DNA of 35,164 nt from positions 1 through 35,164 of IMG/VR virus record IMGVR_UViG_3300042357_000665. One strand, 5' to 3'. The stretch comes from a virus. This document shows positions 11,395 through 33,439 of this stretch, in pieces (within the stretch, counting starts at the first letter, position 1; every line of letters begins with the position of its first letter). Made by a program: the position numbers and the translations under genes. Under the pieces are notes generated by a model. It ran no database searches and had not been told where the DNA came from. It was given only the letters and a program-made list of their open reading frames with translations.

Positions 11395-12249
11395 TTAGCT
11401 AACAATAATTCTCGAAAGAGAAAAGTCATTTATGACTGCGAAGCCGAGTTCTTCGTAAACAACCCAACCCAATCGCAGGCGACGAGTGTCGTCAGCTGGA
11501 AGGACTGTGATGTCTTGTCGAATGGGAATTGCGCCAACGTATTGGGCAGGAGCCATAATAAACACACAGTTCTTTGGCACCATTGTCGACAAGTGAATGT
11601 CAGCAGTGTAGAGGTGACCATAGAGACCAGTCTGAAGAATATCGCGCTGAGTGGCTTGATCGTAAACGTCTGGGCCCCAGCCTCGGAAATCCTTGTAGCG
11701 AGCAGGAGGTACAACAATCTTTGCGCCGATGAGCTCGTGCTCTTCGATCAAAGTAAGTGCAAGGTTAACTTGCTCAAGCTGAACTGTACCGGCAACACTA
11801 ATGGTTTGATCGGTAGGAGTGCCAGCATTGATGACCTTGAACACTTCTGTGTCCTCTTGTCGCTGCAGTGAATCCTTGGCGCGAATTTGAGCTCGGTCAA
11901 CGATGTAGAACCGTCGGGCGCGAACTTCGCTGTAACGAATCACTGGGTTTGCAGCAATTTCAAAGGTTGGAACGAGTAGCTCTTCTGCTTCAATTTCTGA
12001 AGTAGGAACAGCGCCTCTCTTGCCAACTACGAACGACTTAGCTGTGACATCTCTTTCATAGCGAGGAAGAACGCCCTGCGGGAGTTCGTCCACCAAAAGA
12101 AGCTTTCGACCAATTGCTTGGTACTGAAGAGCGTTCTTGATTGGCTCAACCATTGCTTGTGCAAGCGCAGTCTTTCCTTCTGCTGTTTCGAGGGCCATAG
12201 CCACAATTTGTTCTCTTGTTTCGTTAATGTTATTTTTAATAAGTGACAT
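11395..12249 (-). CDS. major capsid protein (HK97-fold type)
   Basis: A 284-residue protein that forms the icosahedral shell. Visible features fit short HK97-fold capsid proteins: a helical N-arm ('REQIVAMALETAEGKTALAQ'), a long P-domain-like helix ('TVQLEQVNLALTLIEEHEL'), the loop 'GAKIVVPPARYKDFRGWG', and a beta-rich C-terminal A-domain ('PKNCVFIMAPAQYVGAIPIR', 'LGWVVYEELGFAVIND'). The gene is visibly less AT-rich than its neighbours, as expected for the most highly expressed phage gene. It lies last in the head operon before the strong terminator and downstream of scaffold and decoration genes. There is no obvious scaffold-like delta domain, so the separate upstream protein probably scaffolds. 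Its identity rests on fold pattern, composition and position. Confidence 0.8.
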   Translation of the reverse strand: MSLIKNNINETREQIVAMALETAEGKTALAQAMVEPIKNALQYQAIGRKLLLVDELPQGVLPRYERDVTAKSFVVGKRGAVPTSEIEAEELLVPTFEIAANPVIRYSEVRARRFYIVDRAQIRAKDSLQRQEDTEVFKVINAGTPTDQTISVAGTVQLEQVNLALTLIEEHELIGAKIVVPPARYKDFRGWGPDVYDQATQRDILQTGLYGHLYTADIHLSTMVPKNCVFIMAPAQYVGAIPIRQDITVLPADDTRRLRLGWVVYEELGFAVINDFSLSRIIVS

Positions 12250-14805: not shown

Positions 14806-17800
14806 TTAAATCCATACAATACTTGTATCAATTTCACCTGGTTTTCCTGGTACTTTTTTTACTTCTGTAACAGAAATTGTTCCACAATCGTAGCAATAGG
14901 TATTTTTTTCTTGCTTTGAGGCAGTTCTTGAACCACATGAGGGGCAAATCATTCCTACAGGAAGTTTGTGAGCAGTTCGTTTATCAAATCCTTCGGATAG
15001 AGCATTTGCATAAACATCAGCTGTTGTGCGGTATGCCACTTTGACCATGACTTTACTTGTGGATGCCATCGCACCCATTCCAGGAGCACCCATTCCAGCC
15101 ATACCCATTCCAGGAGCACCCATTCCAGGAGCACCCATTCCAGGAGCGCCAGCTCCAGGAGTGGCCATACCTGTTTCAGCAGTTGCCAGAGGCGCGCCAA
15201 TACCGCCAGTTGGAGGTAACGGCATAGCGGCAGTTGCTGCGTCTAGGCCACCTGCTTCACTTTCTTCTTTATCTCCTTTTCCTGAAGGAACAGCTTCTAC
15301 AATAAATTTATATTTAAGTTGAGTGTCACAGCTGTTGCATTCACCTTCGCCATTGGCGATATCAACATCTTTTGATCCGCATTGTGGACAAATAGTGCCC
15401 CAGGGAGACTTTGTTCCTGGCTCAGACTGTGCATCTAAAGCTGCATCATCGTCCATACCAGGAGTAGAACCAGTTAAACTTGAGAGACCTAAATCTGCGG
15501 CTCCACCGGCCATTCCAGCATCAGGTGCTCCTCCCAAGAGCGGATCCATGGCACCAGGAGCAGCACCAGCAGCACCAGGAGCACCAGGAGCAGCACCTGG
15601 CAAGCCCAGACCTTGAGCCACTTTAATTATATTTTGAAGTCTAGCCATTCTTCGCATTGATTTAGCCGAAGCTGTCATAACGATGGAAGGTGTTTCTTCC
15701 AAGGATTTCGGCATATTGTCAATTGGGCCCATTGACATAGCTTGAGCGCTTGGGTCAATTGGCATAGGAATATCAGACATTCCTTCTATTTCAGGCATTC
15801 CGGTGATTTCAGGAATTTCCGCTTTGACACGATCTTCATCAACGTAAGAATCTTCTTTCATCATTTCTGGTGAAAAAGACTTTGTTGCTTTCGTGCTCAC
15901 TTTTCCTGTAACCATTCCGTTGTCTTCGACATTAATTTCAGTTAATGCAAAAGTAGTTGGGTCAATCTCATATCCAGATTGCGAAAGAAGGTCAACAGCA
16001 AAATCTCTAAATTTTTGATTAAACGCTGCATCTTTAACATCAAAACCTAAATCTTCAACTGTTGCACAAATTGTAGTTTCATGCGATGTAATATCTGTTA
16101 CACGTACTGCGGCGGTTCGCATTGATTTCGATAGAACATTTTTTGCAGCATCAGGATACGAACAGAACAGTTTACTTGCAATTACAATTCTTTCTGTACT
16201 AAGATTATTTTGATTTGCTACATCTGCAAGCCAGCCAATAATTACGCTTCGGAGTTGATTCTTAGAAGCAGTCGCAGTTCTTCGATCTCTGGAACGTGCT
16301 GTAGCCAAGCTTGGGGTTCGCTGCATATCAATTTCTGAGGCCATATCTTCCGGAGCCATTTCGTTTACTGCTCCAACCATATCTTCAGGAGATACTCCAG
16401 CGTCTTCTCCAGCAAGGCTCAATCCAGTGACAGCGCCTTTCATAGCTTCATTATCTGTTGGCTCTTCAACTTCTTCATCCAAAACGCTTTCCATTTCTTC
16501 TTTTTTGGTATCTTTGGGAGCATTTCTTTCTAAAATGTCATCGAGTTTTTCAACAACTTTCTGTAAGTTATCTTTAATAACTGTGAAGGCTTCCATAATG
16601 TCGCCTTCTGAAGTTCCAGGTGTTGCTTCATCAGCAACGTCCTTCATCGCTTCAAGACCTAAATCGCTCGGATGCTCTTCGTCCATCATTGGTTCTTCGG
16701 GCACCATTGGGTCCGGCAGAGGTTGACCTTCTTTTTCGGCCTGAGCAAATTTAGTCATGAGTGAGCTGTACTCTCTTGTTCCTGTACCTAAGGATGCAAG
16801 CTTCAACACTTTTGGAAAATCTTGATTTGCAGAAAGAGTCAATAGCGCAGATAGCACAGTTCTTGGCGAAGATTTTGTTCTGGTGCAAGTTTTTATAATT
16901 CCATCAATAACATTGCACATCACTTCTCGCCCTGAAACTTCAGATCTGCTCAGATCAGGGTGAAGCATTTCTTGTAACGTTTTTGCACCAAGTCCTTTCT
17001 TGGCATCTTTTGACAACTCTGTTACAATGTAGACTAAATCTTCATGCCGTAGCGACTGAATCATTTCATTGTAGCTGTGAGTTTGCGGAGCATTTTTTCT
17101 TTGCTCTTCTAATTTAGCTTGGAAAGTTTCATCGGTGACACCAGCATGTTCTTTGTTAACTTCAGTTGTCAATCTCACAAGATCAAACTCTTTTTCTGAT
17201 TCAAGATTTTCATCAAGAGTCAGCATGTCATTCACTTTATTTTGCACTTCTGCAGTTTTCATGGTTTTTGAAAACTCTTGTAGAAGTTCACCGGCAACTT
17301 TATAACCGCTTCCGTTTTCCATTTGCGATAATTGTGTATCGTTCAAGTTTGGTTGCCAATTTGTCAATTGTCCTTTATAGAAACCTTTGATTCCTTTGTC
17401 GGTGGATAAAACCACTCTATTGCCATGGTTATCGTCCAGTTTAATGTCAATTCCTAAAGCAACTGAATTTTGCTTTTTGTAATCTTGTGCTATTTTTGCA
17501 AATTGATCCATAATATTTTTGTCTCCGCCAGAAACTGTTTGTATATTCTTCTGAGATGATAATAAATCACCTTCATAATTTTTTGTTTGTATTCCGCAAG
17601 CTTCTCGCAAATTATCTATTGCTACAATGACTTTTGAAATTTTATTTAATTTTTTGGTTTGTACATTCACTTCTTCAGTTTGATCTGAAGCCCAAACGAA
17701 TCTTGTGTTTGAAGTGTTTGCTGACACTCCTCCTCCAAGAGGCATCACGTATGGTTGTTGTGAAAACGGTGATATTAGCTGTCCAACAGAAGGCTGTTCA

Positions 17801-19134
17801 AGTGACGCTGGCATTTGTGCTTGAGCGCCGATTCCTTGTGCTGGAAGGGTTTGTTCTGCAGTTGCTCCTTGATTTGCTGGTGGTTGGGCTGGAGCCTGAG
17901 GTGTAATCATAGGTTGTCCTGCTGCTGCTGATCCGCCCGATGAATCGATACCATCATCAATCATATCTTGAAGTGTATTTTGTAGTTCGCCCATTGCTTT
18001 TGTAATTTTTGCAACGTGAACAAGATCTATGTTTTCTTTTCTTGAAAAAAGATTTAACACAGCCACTTCTAAAAAGTTAAGCGCTAAGTTAATCAGGTCT
18101 AGGATATTTAGTTGTCCAGATGGATCAATTCCAAGTCCTTGTAAAATTTTAACTACAGTTGCATTTTGAATTGCATTTCCACCTGCAATTTGTCCACCAA
18201 CCAGAGTTCCTGCTGATTGGGCAACTCTAATAATTGATGAGTTCAAGCTTTGTAGTTGCCTGAGTGTTTTTTCCACCTCTTTTTGTGTTGAAATATCATT
18301 ATGAAGTGATGCCGCGATTGTGATGGAAGAGTTAAGAGACCGCGCGGATTTTATCGTTGTCTCAGCTTTTTTCAAAAAGTCTTCTGAATCATATAATTCC
18401 AAAATTTCACACGATTCGAATGCTCCATCTCCCACGCATGAAAGTTCAATAAATTTAATTCCAAAATTGTATTCAAAAGTTCTTTTGCCAGATGGGTGCA
18501 TTTTGCCTTTATATTTTTTAAGACAATCGCAGTATTCTTTTTCTGTTGTTGCTTTGTTTCCACAGATTGAACACTCGCCCAAATCTACGGAACACCCCAT
18601 CGACACGTCGCGAATGTAGCCATGCCTAATTCCTCTGGCAATATCGGGGTATGCATCCTCGTCCACAAAAAACACACAATATACACATTTTTCTTCGTCA
18701 TCCCATTCAGCGTAGACAACCATGCCTTTTGCTTCTTCAATATTGTCATTTTTATGATTTGTATAAATTGGAACGCCTTCAAATGTTTTGTAGGCAGGTA
18801 ATTTTTTACCTTGATAGTCATTTTCTTTGAGAAGCTCTTCTTCAGAAAAGTAATCTCCATTAGTATTAACAACATCTGCATCAATCGCGCGAGCTCTCAC
18901 CCAGAGAAGATTTGAATTTTTTCTGGATTTCATCTCTTTAATCAAGTCAAAATCTTTATACCGCTCAAGAACTTCATCGGCATTTGTGTACAGAGTTTGT
19001 AAACCAATTTTTGCAGCTTCCCGCAACGAAGATGACGTGCGAACCATAGCTTGGTTGCTCATACTTTGTCTGTCCTTTGAATCCAAAAGGGATTTTACAG
19101 ACAACAAACCGCCACTAATTCCTTTTCTAATCAT
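14806..19134 (-). CDS. prohead protease fused to scaffold-like region and two zinc ribbons
   Basis: A 1442-residue protein. Residues about 75-250 match U35/HK97-type prohead proteases: 'RARAIDADVVNTNGDYFSEE', 'VPIYTNHKND' (His127, candidate catalytic), 'GYIRDVSMGCSV' (Ser178, candidate nucleophile) and 'GIKFIELSCVGDGAFE'. A small Cys group (C188, C191, C202, C204) follows the Ser. The middle is long, helical and acidic ('MKDVADEATPGTSEGDIMEA'), scaffold-like, and holds several [KR]-h-A-[QS] motifs. The C-terminal third has Gly/Pro/Ala/Met-rich linkers and two zinc ribbons: one near residues 1246-1270 (CPQCGS...CNSC) and one at C1397, C1400, C1414, C1417 (CPSCGS...CYDC). HK97-type proteases usually have about 200 residues, so this is a very large fusion. 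It lies between portal and capsid, the standard protease place. Met25 also has a good ribosome site and could be the start. Confidence 0.8.
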   Translation of the reverse strand: MIRKGISGGLLSVKSLLDSKDRQSMSNQAMVRTSSSLREAAKIGLQTLYTNADEVLERYKDFDLIKEMKSRKNSNLLWVRARAIDADVVNTNGDYFSEEELLKENDYQGKKLPAYKTFEGVPIYTNHKNDNIEEAKGMVVYAEWDDEEKCVYCVFFVDEDAYPDIARGIRHGYIRDVSMGCSVDLGECSICGNKATTEKEYCDCLKKYKGKMHPSGKRTFEYNFGIKFIELSCVGDGAFESCEILELYDSEDFLKKAETTIKSARSLNSSITIAASLHNDISTQKEVEKTLRQLQSLNSSIIRVAQSAGTLVGGQIAGGNAIQNATVVKILQGLGIDPSGQLNILDLINLALNFLEVAVLNLFSRKENIDLVHVAKITKAMGELQNTLQDMIDDGIDSSGGSAAAGQPMITPQAPAQPPANQGATAEQTLPAQGIGAQAQMPASLEQPSVGQLISPFSQQPYVMPLGGGVSANTSNTRFVWASDQTEEVNVQTKKLNKISKVIVAIDNLREACGIQTKNYEGDLLSSQKNIQTVSGGDKNIMDQFAKIAQDYKKQNSVALGIDIKLDDNHGNRVVLSTDKGIKGFYKGQLTNWQPNLNDTQLSQMENGSGYKVAGELLQEFSKTMKTAEVQNKVNDMLTLDENLESEKEFDLVRLTTEVNKEHAGVTDETFQAKLEEQRKNAPQTHSYNEMIQSLRHEDLVYIVTELSKDAKKGLGAKTLQEMLHPDLSRSEVSGREVMCNVIDGIIKTCTRTKSSPRTVLSALLTLSANQDFPKVLKLASLGTGTREYSSLMTKFAQAEKEGQPLPDPMVPEEPMMDEEHPSDLGLEAMKDVADEATPGTSEGDIMEAFTVIKDNLQKVVEKLDDILERNAPKDTKKEEMESVLDEEVEEPTDNEAMKGAVTGLSLAGEDAGVSPEDMVGAVNEMAPEDMASEIDMQRTPSLATARSRDRRTATASKNQLRSVIIGWLADVANQNNLSTERIVIASKLFCSYPDAAKNVLSKSMRTAAVRVTDITSHETTICATVEDLGFDVKDAAFNQKFRDFAVDLLSQSGYEIDPTTFALTEINVEDNGMVTGKVSTKATKSFSPEMMKEDSYVDEDRVKAEIPEITGMPEIEGMSDIPMPIDPSAQAMSMGPIDNMPKSLEETPSIVMTASAKSMRRMARLQNIIKVAQGLGLPGAAPGAPGAAGAAPGAMDPLLGGAPDAGMAGGAADLGLSSLTGSTPGMDDDAALDAQSEPGTKSPWGTICPQCGSKDVDIANGEGECNSCDTQLKYKFIVEAVPSGKGDKEESEAGGLDAATAAMPLPPTGGIGAPLATAETGMATPGAGAPGMGAPGMGAPGMGMAGMGAPGMGAMASTSKVMVKVAYRTTADVYANALSEGFDKRTAHKLPVGMICPSCGSRTASKQEKNTYCYDCGTISVTEVKKVPGKPGEIDTSIVWI
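15071..15160. repeat. 15-bp tandem repeat inside the protease fusion gene
   Basis: Six units of the type 'GCACCCATTCCAGGA', four of them identical or differing at two bases, coding on the minus strand for a Gly-Ala-Pro-Gly-Met linker. It is in frame, so copy-number change would alter only linker length. Confidence 0.8.
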
Positions 19135-19186: not shown

Positions 19187-21604
19187 TTAATCATTTTGTT
19201 GTTGTTTTTGAAATTTTTTGAACTCAAGTGAATTATCTTTGTAAGCAAAAAGAAGTTTTTGCATAGCTTGTTGAATTACCACAGCTACATCTTGTGGTTG
19301 TTTTTCAATTTCTCGATCAGTGAACCTTAAAATTGTCCACCCTTGTCTTGCTAAATTGATGTCTCTTTGTCTATCTGATTCAATTTTTTTAGGATTGTTA
19401 TGGAAGATTTCACCATCAGCTTCGATACCTAATTTTATAGCTGGAAAGGCTCCATCTAAAGTATATTCTTTTGATGGTCCAGCTTCAAATTGAGCATAAA
19501 AAGCTACAGGCACATTCATGGACATAATTAAACGATATAATTTTTTTTCTAAGTTATTGTAACCTTGAATGTTTTTCCTTTCTTTCTTTTTGCCGGCCTG
19601 TACTTCTTTTTTAGCGAGATAATTTTCAGGAACACCTAACCCTTCATGATCCCATGGATTAATTTGGCTTAAATCGTCTGGGACTTCTCCGAAATAAGAT
19701 CTTCCAGTGACAGCAAATTTTTGATTTAATTCTTGGTCAACTTTACTAATATAAGTGTTTTCTTCATAAGAAGAAAGTTGCTGCCTATTGTGTAAAATTT
19801 CATTCATCACATTGGCTGCAAAACGGTATTGCAAATGAATTGATTCAGCTGTTGGAGCTGGAGCTGGAGTTGGAGCTGTAGCTGGTGCTGCAGCTGGAGG
19901 TGCTCCAAAACCCATTCCCATGTCTGGAGCTCCGCCTACTGGGGCTCCGCCCACTGGAGTTCCGCCCATTTCTGAGCCACCCATTTCTGGACCACCCATT
20001 CCTCCTGTCAAAGGTTGATTGGTCCCACCTGTAAATCCTTGTCCCGTGACACCCCCAAACCCAATATTCATATCAGTATTCATAACATCTGCCGACGTTA
20101 CAAAATTCATACCTTGCTCAAAACGTAGTCTTTCAATTTCTTGGTCCCAGTTCAATCCAAGTTGTTCAACCAATGTTTCTGCAGAAATTGCTCCTGCTGA
20201 CTGAGCTGTTTGCATAACTTGCAAAATTCCCGTGTTGTCTTTGAGTTTGAGGTCATCAAAAATTATTTTAGGATAAATAAGTTCTTCTTGCCCTCCCTCT
20301 CCTGTTGCATAAAAATCATTCCATTCTGCGCACTTTTTAAATATTTTTTCTTCAACCCATTGTGCAACTTTCCTTCGCCAGGTTTCCAAGCGCTCATTCA
20401 TAGACATAAGCCCCACCTGAGCATTCCCGTATGCAGGACCTTCTCCGTTAAGTAAAGCTTTGTTCAGCATTAATCCGTCTAATATTTCTTGTTCGATCAG
20501 CTCCATTTCATTGGAAAGTTTAAGAACTTCGTTTCCTGCTCCGACAAATTTATAATCAAAAGCGTGTGGCACAACAAGAGTTAAATTAGGATCATTTGCC
20601 ACTGCAGAAATTTGCTCTTGAACAGCGTCCAAGTCAGCTTGAGATGCTGGCCTTTCATTATCACCAACCATCACAATTCTAACTGGTAAGATATGTCGTT
20701 CAGCAACAATCCATTGAGCTTGTCTAAGTTTATCTTTATAAGCTAATGTAACAAACAAAGGTCTTATGAGTGAATTACCATAATCTGCCCAAGGATCAGC
20801 TGCGTGTTTAAAATGGTGAACACACATCGCGCTTAATTTGATCGGTTGTTTACGAACTATCATAGCCTTGACTTCATCAGGGATTGCATCGTATTGTTCC
20901 TGCTCATGAGGACTTCTGTCCATTACCAGCCGAACTTCTCGATCATTTGGCATGTAAGCATATGTTGGTTCATTATCCATGAAACCAGGTGTGATCATCA
21001 CTGAATCTGGATTTAGAATGTGAATTGATTTCCATGAAGCTCCTTTGTGATCACATTCTTGTCCTCTTTTATCAATGTTCTTGCCTTGGCATTTGGGACA
21101 ATCAATTGAAGTCATTGCAAAACAATCTCCATATAGGTGATAACTTTGTGAAATTTCTGGAAGCCAGTGTTGAAAATTTAGTTTTTGAATTAACTTTTCA
21201 AAGTAGTCTTTTACGACGGAAGATTTACATTCAAGCTTCCATCCATTAAAAGGAAAGTTAGTATAAAAGTTAATTCCGGCGGCGACTTTGGGCTCATTAT
21301 TTCGCCACCAATTTGCCCACAGATAAATTTCTTTTCTTGTGTTGGGAATTTGAAAAGATGTTGGAGTTAAAAACGGGCTGTAAAAACCAGGTTGTGTGAC
21401 CGTACTGTTTGGGCTCGACATTTGAGCCATCCGATTCATGTTTGTGCTTACTGTTTGAAAACCTTTGGCAGATCTTATTTCAGCAAGTTTTTTGGTGCCT
21501 CCGGTTTTCTGTGAACTAGCATTTGTTTGTTTATTTGTCACTTGTCTTGCAGTTTGAAACAAAACACTTGCAAGAGACGGGATTTCATTAAAATTTTCAG
21601 CCAA
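19187..21604 (-). CDS. portal protein with C-terminal DUF559-type nuclease domain
   Basis: An 805-residue protein. Residues about 85-500 read as a phage portal: 'NEPKVAAGINFYTNFPFNGW', 'EISQSYHLYGDCFAMTSID', 'WKSIHILNPDSVMITPG', 'YGNSLIRPLFVTLAYKDKLR', 'NEVLKLSNEMELIEQEILDG', then the stem and crown helices. A Cys/His set (C169, C172, C184, H186) sits in an inserted loop. Residues about 515-585 are a Gly/Pro/Ala linker. Residues about 680-775 match DUF559/PD-(D/E)XK endonuclease-like proteins: 'YTLDGAFPAIKLGIEADGE' (D717, E728, D730), then 'RDINLARQGWTILRF'. Start: no suitable ATG, but a TTG at 21604 with AAAGGAG 8 bases upstream. Portal is the dodecameric DNA channel; the fused nuclease-like domain is unusual and may cut, trim or protect DNA at the vertex. 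Confidence 0.85.
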   Translation of the reverse strand: MAENFNEIPSLASVLFQTARQVTNKQTNASSQKTGGTKKLAEIRSAKGFQTVSTNMNRMAQMSSPNSTVTQPGFYSPFLTPTSFQIPNTRKEIYLWANWWRNNEPKVAAGINFYTNFPFNGWKLECKSSVVKDYFEKLIQKLNFQHWLPEISQSYHLYGDCFAMTSIDCPKCQGKNIDKRGQECDHKGASWKSIHILNPDSVMITPGFMDNEPTYAYMPNDREVRLVMDRSPHEQEQYDAIPDEVKAMIVRKQPIKLSAMCVHHFKHAADPWADYGNSLIRPLFVTLAYKDKLRQAQWIVAERHILPVRIVMVGDNERPASQADLDAVQEQISAVANDPNLTLVVPHAFDYKFVGAGNEVLKLSNEMELIEQEILDGLMLNKALLNGEGPAYGNAQVGLMSMNERLETWRRKVAQWVEEKIFKKCAEWNDFYATGEGGQEELIYPKIIFDDLKLKDNTGILQVMQTAQSAGAISAETLVEQLGLNWDQEIERLRFEQGMNFVTSADVMNTDMNIGFGGVTGQGFTGGTNQPLTGGMGGPEMGGSEMGGTPVGGAPVGGAPDMGMGFGAPPAAAPATAPTPAPAPTAESIHLQYRFAANVMNEILHNRQQLSSYEENTYISKVDQELNQKFAVTGRSYFGEVPDDLSQINPWDHEGLGVPENYLAKKEVQAGKKKERKNIQGYNNLEKKLYRLIMSMNVPVAFYAQFEAGPSKEYTLDGAFPAIKLGIEADGEIFHNNPKKIESDRQRDINLARQGWTILRFTDREIEKQPQDVAVVIQQAMQKLLFAYKDNSLEFKKFQKQQQND

Positions 21605-21612
21605 AAGTTAAT

Positions 21613-21619
21613 CTCCTTT
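21613..21619 (-). promoter_or_regulatory. ribosome-binding site setting the TTG start of the portal gene
   Basis: AAAGGAG on the minus strand, 8 bases before the TTG at 21604-21602. It is among the best Shine-Dalgarno matches in the window and decides for the rare TTG start. A TATAAT hexamer (21631-21626) lies just upstream but has no convincing -35 partner. Confidence 0.7.
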
Positions 21620-21658
21620 CACATTATTATACACACAATGTTGGCTGCGCCCCTTCTA

Positions 21659-21684
21659 AATTAATTTTCAGGCCGTGAATCAAT
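21659..21684. repeat. 26-bp direct repeat, copy 1 (end of nucleotidyltransferase gene)
   Basis: 25 of 26 bases identical to 23458-23483. In coding direction it begins 'ATTGATTCACGGCCTGAAAA' and includes the TAA. Both copies encode the same last residues, IDSRPEN. The two copies bracket the whole nucleotidyltransferase gene. Confidence 0.85.
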
Positions 21685-23379
21685 TGGTTGATAGTTGGTT
21701 TTCATATATATTGAAAGCCATTTTTGAGCAGACTCTTGATCAGCGAACTTGTTTTCTAACTGTGCATTCCAAGCATCATCTAGGATTTTTCCAACCTCTG
21801 GACCTCCACGTCCATTGAAATATGGCAAGACATGCTCGCCTCTCAACAAGGCCGCGCTGGGCTTGACATAGTTTTCAAGCCATGCTTTACCTTCTTCTAG
21901 AGTGGAATAATGGTCTTTGAGATAGGCTTTATATGCTTCTTGAACTGCTTTGCCTATATGAGGGCCTGTTTTTCCTTGAAAATATGGAACAACGTGCTTT
22001 CCAGTTATAACTGGTGCAGGCTTACGATTATGCACATCATCTGCTTTTGCGGCATCTAACAGCCATTGAGCTTGATCTGGTAGTTTTTTTGGAAGCGGCG
22101 GACGACCTGAATGGTCAGCTTCAATTAAGTCGACCAGCTCTTCAATAGTAGCCGGTGACAAATTGTGCGACAAAATCCTTACTTGCCGTTTACCTATGTT
22201 GCTGTCTTTATATTGAATATGATTTAGGTGGTTTGTGACCAAAGGTACAACACGATTAATAATATCGTTCTTCACTCCAATATTTTTGAGAAATTCTTGA
22301 ACCACTGGACCACCTGCCTCTTCGTGCCCGTGTGCTGTCCATCTCATTTTGCCACCTTTTTCCTTTTGTTCAGTGGTAAAAGCTTTAGCAAAATCGTGAC
22401 CAAGTGCTGCAAAAATAGCAACTGCTCGATCATCTCCCGTGAGCCCTCGCCTGTCGGCAATACTTGCTGCTGCATCCATAACATGCGCCGTGTGAGTGTG
22501 TACAGGGCCCTCGGGGTGCCACTCGTATTCTTGAGGCACATCAACGATTGCTTCAATTTGCGGGAAGTATTTAATCCAACCTGTGTCAATCAAATATTGA
22601 ATCGCACTGCCTGGAAATTTGCCTTTAGTAGCCAGTTTCATAAATTCTTCAGCAACACGTTCTCTTGAAATGCCATTTGTATTATCGGAAGTTTTATATA
22701 AATCCTTCAAGTCATCAGCCAATGTTTTAGCAATCTGCGCAGTTTTTGGTTCAATAGTCAGCCCCATACGAGCCGCGAACTGCATCCCACGCAACACACG
22801 AAGTGGATCTTCTCCAAATGTTTTTTCATCTGTGGCTCGGAGAATTTTGTTTTCTAAATCGTTTCGTCCTCCAAAATAATCATACATTTTGTAATTTAAT
22901 GGGTCGTATGCCAATGCGTTAAAAGAAAAATCTCTTCTTTTTGCAGCTTCAAATGGAGACATATTTGGGTCTACCTGGATATCAAATCCAGTGTGCCCCT
23001 CTCCAGTTTTACTATCGCGCCGAGGAAGAGAGAAGTCATAATCATTACCTTCTTTATCTCGAAACTTGATAACACCAAAAGCCTTTCCAATAATCGAAGA
23101 CGACTCTGCACTATTAGTGGCGTTTCCAAGGACGTAGCCATATTCATTTAATACAGAAGATAATTGATTGAAGTCAGGCCCATAAACTTCAATATCTATA
23201 TCTTTAGGAACATAACCCAGCAATGCATCTCGAACGGCTCCGCCAACAATTAACCCGCGCCAACCGTTTTGCTTAAATGCTTGCAAAATTTGCACTAAGC
23301 TGACACTCACCGGAATGTTTAAATTTTCCTCAGTAACACCATCCTGGTGCTCAGATGATAAAACTGTGCGATACCACAT
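21661..23379 (-). CDS. cca: CCA-adding-type tRNA nucleotidyltransferase with HD domain
   Basis: I place the start at the ATG at 23379 (572 residues); the frame runs further up to a TTG but through a hairpin repeat. Class II nucleotidyltransferase signatures are clear: 'LIVGGAVRDALLGY' (GG at 46-47), 'PKDIDIEVYG' (D60, D62, metal-binding), 'RRDFSFNALAYDP' and 'EDPLRVLRGMQFAARMG'. An HD phosphohydrolase domain follows ('HVMDAAASIAD', 'FAALGHDFAKAF' with H328-D329). The C-terminus holds two similar units of about 43 residues ('GKHVVPYFQGKTGPHIGK' and 'GEHVLPYFNGRGGPEVGK'). The expected role is repair or addition of tRNA 3'-CCA ends, with the HD part acting on phosphoesters. It interrupts the head operon, has a 26-bp direct repeat at its end and a hairpin at its start, and shares its last seven residues with the upstream gene. 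Poly(A) polymerase activity cannot be excluded. Confidence 0.88.
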   Translation of the reverse strand: MWYRTVLSSEHQDGVTEENLNIPVSVSLVQILQAFKQNGWRGLIVGGAVRDALLGYVPKDIDIEVYGPDFNQLSSVLNEYGYVLGNATNSAESSSIIGKAFGVIKFRDKEGNDYDFSLPRRDSKTGEGHTGFDIQVDPNMSPFEAAKRRDFSFNALAYDPLNYKMYDYFGGRNDLENKILRATDEKTFGEDPLRVLRGMQFAARMGLTIEPKTAQIAKTLADDLKDLYKTSDNTNGISRERVAEEFMKLATKGKFPGSAIQYLIDTGWIKYFPQIEAIVDVPQEYEWHPEGPVHTHTAHVMDAAASIADRRGLTGDDRAVAIFAALGHDFAKAFTTEQKEKGGKMRWTAHGHEEAGGPVVQEFLKNIGVKNDIINRVVPLVTNHLNHIQYKDSNIGKRQVRILSHNLSPATIEELVDLIEADHSGRPPLPKKLPDQAQWLLDAAKADDVHNRKPAPVITGKHVVPYFQGKTGPHIGKAVQEAYKAYLKDHYSTLEEGKAWLENYVKPSAALLRGEHVLPYFNGRGGPEVGKILDDAWNAQLENKFADQESAQKWLSIYMKTNYQPIDSRPEN

Positions 23380-23399
23380 TAATTTATAGTTCAAGCGGG

Positions 23400-23433
23400 G
23401 AAACCCCACCCCCTTGTGGGCGACGTAGCTGAC
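23400..23433 (-). repeat. GC-rich hairpin repeat, copy 2 (IS200/IS605-end-like)
   Basis: Minus strand: 'GTCAGCTACGTCGCCCACAA' followed by 'GGGGGTGGGGTTTC', then CCCGCTTGAAC. It is the counterpart of 9619-9651, with a few substitutions and one indel. It lies 20 bases upstream of the nucleotidyltransferase ATG. The stem CGCCCAC/GTGGGG and the trailing TTGAAC look like the right-end hairpin of IS200/IS605 elements as I remember them. No transposase remains. Confidence 0.55.
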
Positions 23434-23457
23434 TGGTCTGGCTGTGTTCAACGACTG

Positions 23458-23483
23458 AATTAATTTTCAGGCCTTGAATCAAT
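23458..23483. repeat. 26-bp direct repeat, copy 2 (end of the 98-residue gene)
   Basis: Matches 21659-21684 at 25 of 26 bases and encodes the C-terminal IDSRPEN and TAA of the 98-residue protein. Distance between copies is 1799 bases, covering the hairpin and the whole nucleotidyltransferase gene. Confidence 0.85.
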
Positions 23484-23756
23484 ATAGTTATCATGTTGTG
23501 GTGTATTAAGCAGCGACCTCTGATATAGGTATGTTCCACCCGCACCAGGGCCAGCTTTAAGAAGATCAGGTGACATATTCAACGCTGACAAGCCCATTTC
23601 AACACCTGAGTCCTTTTCATGAATTTGCTCTAAGGAACTTGATAAAGATAAATCTGAGATTTGTTTTTTTGGGGTTGCAGAAGTTTCCAAAGGTTTTTGA
23701 GTTAATTGCTCTTGAATCGATCTTACATAATCTTTTGAAAATTTCCACCAAGACAT
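23460..23756 (-). CDS. small protein ending in IDSRPEN, unknown
   Basis: A 98-residue protein beginning 'MSWWKFSKDYVRSIQEQ', Ser- and Leu-rich in the middle, with a C-terminal part 'LLKAGPGAGGTYLYQ' and the end IDSRPEN. That ending is identical to the one of the nucleotidyltransferase downstream. The 'AGPG' piece resembles the C-terminus of the 350-residue protein at 30245 ('LAGPGPAGAGVYPIAGYL'). Its ATG overlaps the preceding stop by one base (TAATG), so it belongs to the upstream operon. No fold is recognised. A small virion or portal-associated protein is possible from context. Confidence 0.5.
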   Translation of the reverse strand: MSWWKFSKDYVRSIQEQLTQKPLETSATPKKQISDLSLSSSLEQIHEKDSGVEMGLSALNMSPDLLKAGPGAGGTYLYQRSLLNTPQHDNYIDSRPEN

Positions 23757-31324: not shown

Positions 31325-33439
31325 TTACCTAAAGGCTCTACCAGTGTAAGCAATTCTCGCTCTTGGAAATTTTTTATGATATGCTTGTTCTTGCGAACAT
31401 TCATAAAGACAAGCAGCGGTGGCATCACAAATATCATCTTTATAGCCAGAGAGAGCTTCGATTGTTTGTTTTCCATTTTTCCATTTTTTTTGCAAAAACG
31501 TAAATTGATCTTTTGCCTCTGGAATTTCATTTATTTCAAAAATCTTACCGCTTTTATTCATAGCGGTACCCGCCGACATTTTATAAAATTCAATTGATTT
31601 GCTTCTAAACATCTCAAGTAAGTTTATATAAATTTTGTCTTTATACTCTTTATTAAAAACTTTTAAAACAGCAGGCAGACCTTGATTTTGCAACCTTTCA
31701 ATGGTTTCTGCTGAATGCCACTGATCAAAAGATATTTGTTTAAAACTGAATTTTTTATGAAGATCAATAATATAATTTTCAACCACTTCTATATTGACTG
31801 GTTGCTTCATGTGTTGAGGAGCCCAATACTGAATATGATCAACATAAAATCTTTTTTTCTGTGTTCCGCTTAAATTAAAATCACCATATTGTTCTATGTG
31901 ACCAACTACTAAAGTGTAATAATCATTTCTATTGGCAGGATCTATGTGACAATAAAAGTCATAATTATTTTCTCTTTGTTCCAGCCTAGTGATTCTTTGC
32001 GACTCAATAAAAGCGTGAGCGACATCCTCGGGGTCAAGAAATGGGTTTTCTGAGTTTGTGCCAAATTCAGCTCCAAATTGCATGTTAAATTCTACAGGAT
32101 CTTGTCTTTTTTCCTCCATAAGATCTTTCGCGTTTATATTTGCATTTATCATCCAAGTGGGAAGTTTCAGAATTAATGTAGAATTGTCTTCAAGTCTTGT
32201 GTTGTAAAGATTAAAAAGCTGACCAAATGGGCCCTTAGGGTTCGATAAGCAAATGATTTTTCCATCTTTTTCAAATGTCTTCAAAGACGGTTTTAGCTCA
32301 TTATATAGTTTTTTATCATCACCACCATTTGGATTGTCACCAGCCATGGCAGCAAGCTCATCAATAATAATACACCAACAAGTTTTACCAACTAAGCCAC
32401 CTGCGCTTGAGCTACCGCATTTAAGAATAATGGTTCCATCTAATGGAGTAAGACTTTTTGCTTTTCTTCTCGTGTTTTCTTCTATATCTTTTTCGGTTAA
32501 AAATTTCATCTCCAGAGTATTGTCAACTCCAATATATTTTTGGAAAAAAGGAGAAGCAACAGCCATATTTTTCATAGGAGTGAAAATAGAATCTTTTGCC
32601 TGGTCTTCATTTTTTGCAACGTTCAGGATATGTATTTCTTGAAAATCAGGAAGACCTAGTTTTTTTTGAGGGTGATTCATTGAAAGAAGTTTATAAAGCT
32701 CATACAGTGCAATGGTCACAGTTAAAAACGATTTTCCGCCCCGACGACCCATAATTAAGACTAACTCTCTAAATTTTTTACCTAATTTATTTTTGATTTG
32801 CATTTTGACAGCTTCGTCAGGCACTTCGTCAATTAAATCAAGCTCAGATTGAAAAAAATCTTCTAGCTCAAGTTCTTTGAGTTCCTTTAAAGCAGTTTCT
32901 TCAGATATTTCTCCTGAATTTTCGATTGCATAATCTATTTTAGTATTTCTTACTGCCAATGGGCACCGAAGACATTTGAGGCATCTTGAATTTATTGGTT
33001 TGAGAATATTTTGCGGGGTCTCACCTTTTTCAATATTTTGTGCGGCTAAAATTTCATTGTCTAAAACATACTTCCACACACACTTATCACAATTTTTTTC
33101 TTCTTTTTTATCAGCAGCATTGAGCTCTAAGTTTGTGTTTCCCATTGACCCCATATAAAAAAGTTTTAGTGTCAACATCTGCCATGGGTATGGAGTTAAA
33201 TTCAAATAAAATGGATGTTTGATGAAAGTCTCGATGTCAACAATATTGTGTGGATTATATTTTGACTTATCTCTTGGATCTGGAGCTGGAACTTCATAGC
33301 GATTTGAATAAGTTTGAGGTTCTTGCGATTCCTCATCACTGTCTAAGCCTCTCCAAAGAGATTCAAGTTTTGCAGCATCACGAGCAATTCTTTCTTTTTG
33401 CTCAGCTAATTGTCTTTGTTGATTATTTTTACTGGCCAT
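31325..33439 (-). CDS. terL: terminase large subunit
   Basis: A 704-residue DNA-packaging motor. ATPase part: Walker A 'MGRRGGKSFLTVTIALYE' (231-237), Walker B 'WCIIIDELAAMAG' (D360, E361), and 'KIICLSNPKGPFGQLF' as the coupling motif region. RNase-H-like nuclease part: 'YDFYCHIDPANRNDYY' (D500), 'ISFDQWHSAETIERL' (D572), 'GYKDDICDATAACLYE' (D668/D669/D672), the expected acidic triad. An N-terminal insert before the ATPase core holds C117-x2-C120 and C153-x2-C156-x2-C159, a possible zinc site not usual in terminases. It cleaves concatemers and drives DNA into the prohead through the portal. It is encoded right after the small-subunit candidate, 7 bases apart. Confidence 0.95.
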   Translation of the reverse strand: MASKNNQQRQLAEQKERIARDAAKLESLWRGLDSDEESQEPQTYSNRYEVPAPDPRDKSKYNPHNIVDIETFIKHPFYLNLTPYPWQMLTLKLFYMGSMGNTNLELNAADKKEEKNCDKCVWKYVLDNEILAAQNIEKGETPQNILKPINSRCLKCLRCPLAVRNTKIDYAIENSGEISEETALKELKELELEDFFQSELDLIDEVPDEAVKMQIKNKLGKKFRELVLIMGRRGGKSFLTVTIALYELYKLLSMNHPQKKLGLPDFQEIHILNVAKNEDQAKDSIFTPMKNMAVASPFFQKYIGVDNTLEMKFLTEKDIEENTRRKAKSLTPLDGTIILKCGSSSAGGLVGKTCWCIIIDELAAMAGDNPNGGDDKKLYNELKPSLKTFEKDGKIICLSNPKGPFGQLFNLYNTRLEDNSTLILKLPTWMINANINAKDLMEEKRQDPVEFNMQFGAEFGTNSENPFLDPEDVAHAFIESQRITRLEQRENNYDFYCHIDPANRNDYYTLVVGHIEQYGDFNLSGTQKKRFYVDHIQYWAPQHMKQPVNIEVVENYIIDLHKKFSFKQISFDQWHSAETIERLQNQGLPAVLKVFNKEYKDKIYINLLEMFRSKSIEFYKMSAGTAMNKSGKIFEINEIPEAKDQFTFLQKKWKNGKQTIEALSGYKDDICDATAACLYECSQEQAYHKKFPRARIAYTGRAFR

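Follow-up and report, generated by a model that had tools for sequence, protein, structure and literature searches.

The window, a stretch of 35,164 nucleotides of viral DNA (IMG/VR record IMGVR_UViG_3300042357_000665), carries on its minus strand a reading frame that is open over 805 codons from a TTG start at 21604 down to 19187 (Table 1). An earlier note on this DNA had read the product as a clear portal protein ending in a DUF559/PD-(D/E)XK nuclease-like domain, and profile searches bear out both parts, with matches well beyond chance. The portal part matches PHROG 16240 (E=2e-35) and Pfam Portal_Mu (8.7e-9, above the cut-off), and residues 682-781 match Pfam DUF559 with E=1.5e-9 and a score of 38.1 bits, where the cut-off is 20.6. 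The related family REase_MTES_1575 (PF18741) scores 8e-8 and 32.7 bits in the window protein, below its own cut-off of 38.2, which is passed by three relatives (L003, L075 and L077). The C-terminus was not placed in an ordinary portal domain by these searches, and a Pfam scan of the entire window protein gave no MuF match.

Table 1. Positions of the fused portal gene, its parts and neighbouring head and packaging genes in the window
Feature	Position	Strand	Basis
Portal-nuclease fusion gene, complete, 805 aa, TTG start	19187..21604	-	ORF reading
Ribosome-binding site GAAAGGAG, upstream of the portal TTG start, rated good	21613..21620	-	sequence
Portal core, residues about 72-504	20093..21391	-	PHROG 16240, Portal_Mu, fold match to solved portals
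Gly/Pro/Met/Ala-rich low-complexity stretch, residues 505-585	19850..20092	-	sequence, pLDDT, low conservation
Partly helical stretch, residues 586-680	19565..19849	-	alignment, model helix
DUF559 / Vsr-like PD-(D/E)XK nuclease domain, residues 681-785	19250..19564	-	Pfam DUF559, fold, dN/dS
E686, acid of helix-1, invariant	19547..19549	-	alignment
D717, invariant	19454..19456	-	alignment
E728, invariant	19421..19423	-	alignment
D730, invariant	19415..19417	-	alignment
H735, invariant	19400..19402	-	alignment
1442-aa protein, head-maturation-protease-like N-terminus	14806..19134	-	PHROG 18299 1.3e-19, synteny
Major capsid protein, same head module	11395..12249	-	PHROG 2522 2.6e-64, NCBIfam capsid_Caudo_2 2.6e-51
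Terminase large subunit	31325..33439	-	PHROG 2 1.5e-25

The portal core and the nuclease are about 175 residues apart, a distance made up of a low-complexity stretch of about 80 residues and a non-repetitive one of about 95. The linker of about 70 residues described earlier is therefore too short. Residues 586-680 are kept within the window's own clade and differ in other clades of the alignment. The reading frame is confirmed as a real portal fused via a flexible region to a DUF559/PD-(D/E)XK domain.

The gene lies among terminase, protease-like and capsid genes in a head and packaging module, and this order of head genes is conserved in its relatives. The protease-like gene comes next after the portal gene, across a gap of 52 bp. 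Its product contains low-complexity stretches as well as two CxxC...CxxC zinc-ribbon-like motifs near the C-terminus, and the motifs are common to the window and to a copy of the module in a MAG. Between the portal gene and a gene at 23460-23756 lies a CCA-adding-enzyme-like tRNA nucleotidyltransferase gene (21661-23451; PHROG 2244, 1.7e-65), which was not found at that position in syntenic relatives. The 3' ends of this gene and of the gene upstream of it are near-identical (TTGATTCACGGCCTGAAAATTAA / TTGATTCAAGGCCTGAAAATTAA) and look like an insertion scar.

Fused relatives and selection on the nuclease domain

Relatives were gathered by searching viral contigs with small alignments, which yielded many loci; as the nuclease itself was among the queries, the sampling is biased towards it. 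A single-sequence search of the viral contigs with the whole window portal gave no relatives, and the nuclease part alone, followed by alignments, was needed to find them. Among 84 distinct portal reading frames, the survey that the earlier note had proposed, 73 carry the nuclease, 6 run off the contig and 5 have no nuclease in the same frame (phage G, L074, L069/L076, L078 and L046); in the set found with the portal core as query, 27 of 33 loci are fused. The 73 fused portals come from independent IMG/VR contigs and share an identical type of DUF559 domain, which is matched at E 0.01 in all 28 members of one alignment (A5). The records reach up to 479 kb, with eight long ones of 476, 479, 379, 358, 347, 316, 301 and 255 kb. 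All eight have a DUF559 match in the portal, and in seven it is the sole DUF559 match. In the remaining one, the 476 kb record, a second match lies in a separate frame of 303 codons (locus L166, 222737-222967) and is the only DUF559 match outside a portal among the eight.

A maximum-likelihood tree built from the portal core puts the fused portals in one group with support of 100/99 and leaves phage G, L074, L069 and L078 outside it, with a long-branch warning for L078 and L069. The unfused L046 is nested in the tree beside the fused L134. Since the fused portals form one clade with unfused portals outside, the simplest reading of the sequences is a single ancient fusion, in which one ancestral portal would have gained a Vsr/DUF559-type nuclease at its C-terminus and passed it on by vertical descent. 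A known relative is the portal gp14 of Bacillus phage G (YP_009015325.1), which is homologous with 29% identity over residues 16-505 (2e-62). It has a Gly/Pro-rich tail after the portal and, as in the window, protease-like and capsid genes downstream; by contrast, gp14 is without a nuclease domain and there is no DUF559 match anywhere in the phage G record. The fusion also serves as a marker for a large, uncultured group of jumbo phages that are relatives of phage G.

The acidic residues D717, E728 and D730, which the earlier note had placed correctly, do not vary across the 45 fused portals that were aligned, nor do E686 and H735. The same holds for G731, D744, R747, D748, L751, G755, W756, R760 and F761. 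In the MAG portal (L174) EADS replaces EADG, with the acids and the histidine kept. The median dN/dS is 0.046 in the portal core, 0.072 in the nuclease and 0.27 in the region between them (Nei-Gojobori, 245 pairs that are non-independent). By these values the nuclease domain, whose active-site residues are intact, is under purifying selection, and there is very little doubt that the portal-nuclease fusion is genuine and selected.

Whether the domain stands in for another enzyme was considered for the terminase and for the resolvases. Replacement of the terminase nuclease is unsupported, as the nuclease-motif aspartates of the window terminase, D500 and D668/D669, align with T4 gp17. Replacement of a resolvase is unsupported as well: one of the eight long fused records has an Endo VII match, and four have RusA-like matches, two of which fall short of the RusA cut-off. 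RuvC, in a contrast that at first seemed telling, is present in phage G and absent from the eight records, which may be incomplete. In the same records RecU gave no match, T7 endonuclease I gave none in a search run without a positive control, and a BLAST search with T4 gp4, weak as a single-sequence search, gave none either. With the terminase aspartates kept and Endo VII or RusA-like matches in five of the eight records, it is not evident that the domain takes the place of any other enzyme. Membership of a defence system was also rejected, as PADLOC gave weak matches only.

Predicted fold and placement of the nuclease

The AlphaFold2 model of the window protein is of moderate confidence (mean pLDDT 61.7), with pLDDT below 50 over residues 503-590 and a long predicted helix at residues 586-629. 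Even so, a portal fold is recognised in it by VIA-align with Z up to 19.5 against solved portals. A separate AlphaFold2 model, built for the C-terminal 220 residues alone, is better defined, with block means in the nuclease domain mostly of 82-94 and one block at 73. The predicted fold of this domain resembles 3hrl (Z 14.1), the catalytic domain of I-Bth0305I, an EDxHD homing endonuclease (3r3p, Z 13.8), and Vsr (1cw0, Z 11.3). The latter two are free or intron-encoded enzymes and, unlike the window domain, are not virion parts. The fold also has relatives in mitoribosomes and in FASTKD4, where they belong to RNA-binding machinery.

The C-terminus of T4 gp20 is located on the crown side of the portal. 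Stem, wing and crown of gp20 lie within the capsid and the clip alone is outside (PMC9958956). In the VIA-align comparison with the predicted model, gp20 residues 74-513 align with window residues 92-504, so the extra 300 residues come after the standard portal C-terminus. With residue 504 at the position of the gp20 C-terminus and the crown inside, the nuclease domains would lie within the capsid. From this model we infer some twelve nuclease domains, hung by flexible tethers from the side of the portal that faces the capsid interior, where the DNA channel opens inwards. The earlier note had put the nuclease at the channel; a site in the capsid interior, as the model suggests, alters which roles are plausible.

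Possible roles of a portal-borne nuclease

Portals are usually regarded as passive channels and pressure sensors. The chances are about even that in this clade of giant phages a nuclease with catalytic activity has become a lasting component of the portal ring, on the face turned to the capsid interior, so that each genome would move past tethered DNA-cutting domains when it is packaged or ejected. The favoured explanation, held at slightly less than even confidence, combines identity and function: a working portal of a jumbo phage that belongs to a large clade of uncultured phages, with an added DNA-processing function. The function on its own, that the tethered nuclease processes the phage's own DNA during or just after packaging, is drawn by analogy and is a little more tentative still. 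As a dodecamer, the portal would present about twelve copies of the nuclease at the inner channel mouth, where the tethered enzyme would handle the phage DNA while it enters the head or just after, for example by end trimming or by cutting irregular structures. The portal domain would then do in cis the job of separate T4 nucleases that are bound to the portal or needed for head completion (gp49 and gp4).

The resolvase gp49 (endonuclease VII) of T4 is held at the portal during packaging, where it binds gp20 and frees packaging that has stalled on branched DNA (PMC9958956, PMC3485210). It is a separate protein of another fold and is thought to act before DNA entry, whereas the window nuclease is in the portal chain. 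Another T4 protein, gp4, is a DNase associated with the virion; it is required for packaging and has a REase fold like the window nuclease (PMC7824862), but it is a separate, TnsA-like protein. DNA processing is favoured because the same domain occurs in every fused member and because T4 offers these precedents in separate proteins. Near-universal retention and a single domain type are also more in keeping with a central role in the virion than with an accessory weapon. Several points stand against DNA processing. An interior location would mean that branches could not be cut before the channel, unlike with gp49, which counts against a simple gp49 role; a free nuclease within the head could harm the genome; the domain is not evidently a substitute for the terminase nuclease or a resolvase; and phage G manages without the domain.

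The main rival, which we consider unlikely without discounting it, is that the nuclease is cargo which enters the prohead by its fusion to the portal, may be freed by a cut of the head protease in the flexible region and leaves with the DNA, its target then being host or rival DNA in the new host. This would suit a C-terminus that the model places inside the capsid, a flexible region that is long and poorly conserved, and a protease-like gene directly 3' of the portal gene. It also has a parallel in the MuF toxins, which are encoded next to the portal, are predicted to be packaged into the head and are often nucleases (PMC5576092, PMC3482391). MuF-toxin fusions likewise attach an enzyme domain to a head protein made beside the portal (PMC5576092), but that protein is another one (MuF), the toxin domains are varied and immunity genes accompany them. 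In the fused portals, one domain type is found in every relative, unlike polymorphic toxins, the 52 bp between the portal and protease genes of the window leaves no room for a small immunity-type gene, and any cleavage site in the flexible region is putative. End trimming, attack on host DNA and exclusion of rival genomes, which the earlier note had listed side by side, cannot be told apart by sequence alone.

The same note had also raised a non-catalytic DNA clamp, in which the domain would have lost its nuclease role and would serve solely to grip or organise DNA at the portal. A clamp at the portal end is plausible for very large genomes, and the mitoribosome and FASTKD4 relatives of the fold would agree with a purely binding role. 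It is nevertheless improbable, as the catalytic residues are all invariant in the 45 aligned fused portals, which a clamp need not retain, and the domain is under purifying selection. Less probable again is a homing endonuclease that became attached to the portal gene and is still spreading selfishly. I-Bth0305I is among the closest solved folds and inteins abound in the portal genes of relatives, but EDxHD homing enzymes are found in introns or free-standing, with empty sites, whereas the window domain is in frame in the portal of one clade, at one position, with synteny retained and without an empty site in the fused clade, and is under purifying selection similar to that on the portal core. 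An assembly or annotation error that joined two genes, the other concern of the earlier note, can practically be dismissed: although in L046 (5992-8346) a single in-frame TGA in the linker parts the portal from an otherwise intact nuclease in one frame, which may be a real split, readthrough or a sequencing error, the join recurs in 73 distinct portals on independent contigs.

The fusion itself appears to be new, while both protein families and nucleases acting at portals are known already. In line with the earlier remark that no standard portal is known to have this arrangement, tblastn of 50,697 deposited phage records with the portal and three nuclease domains gave no portal-nuclease fusion, the portal matches being the best 40 of 244 records, none of which extend beyond residue 508. 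The nuclease matches in cultured phages fall to helicases, homing endonucleases, genes next to a methylase or genes lacking annotation, with no annotated portal among them, and literature searches found no description of a portal-nuclease fusion. If the nuclease is fixed to the portal throughout the clade, genome processing would be built into the channel. One active-site residue would then give a simple genetic handle on the role of nucleases at the packaging vertex, which has so far been tied to separate T4 proteins.

In a number of relatives, the portal gene contains between one and about four large insertions (L003 1839-5306, L060, L061, L064-L068, L070 5935-11484, L072, L075 3931-9453, L077, L078 and L151). 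In all five loci checked (L003, L070, L075, L077 and L078) the insertions match intein splicing and LAGLIDADG domains, and judging by these sequences the portal gene seems to be a hotspot for inteins.

A scan of genome contigs with a portal alignment (A4) gave no match, and a capsid query of the same contigs found one MAG, Armatimonadetes bacterium SZAS-3. Its contig of 1.36 Mb holds a fused portal (L174 406-2793) with protease and capsid genes, all of the window's phage type. These lie in the first ~531 kb (G010:C5 1-531000), where the sampled GC is about 0.54, and beyond this point the GC is 0.60 with bacterial-type genes in the sampled stretches. At the join, no integrase-like gene was seen by eye and no tRNA was found by ARAGORN; the contig may be a giant prophage or a phage contig that was wrongly joined. 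Right after the capsid gene, the MAG copy has a TnpB-like reading frame (L174 11067-12188) in which C-terminal CxxC motifs can be seen by eye.
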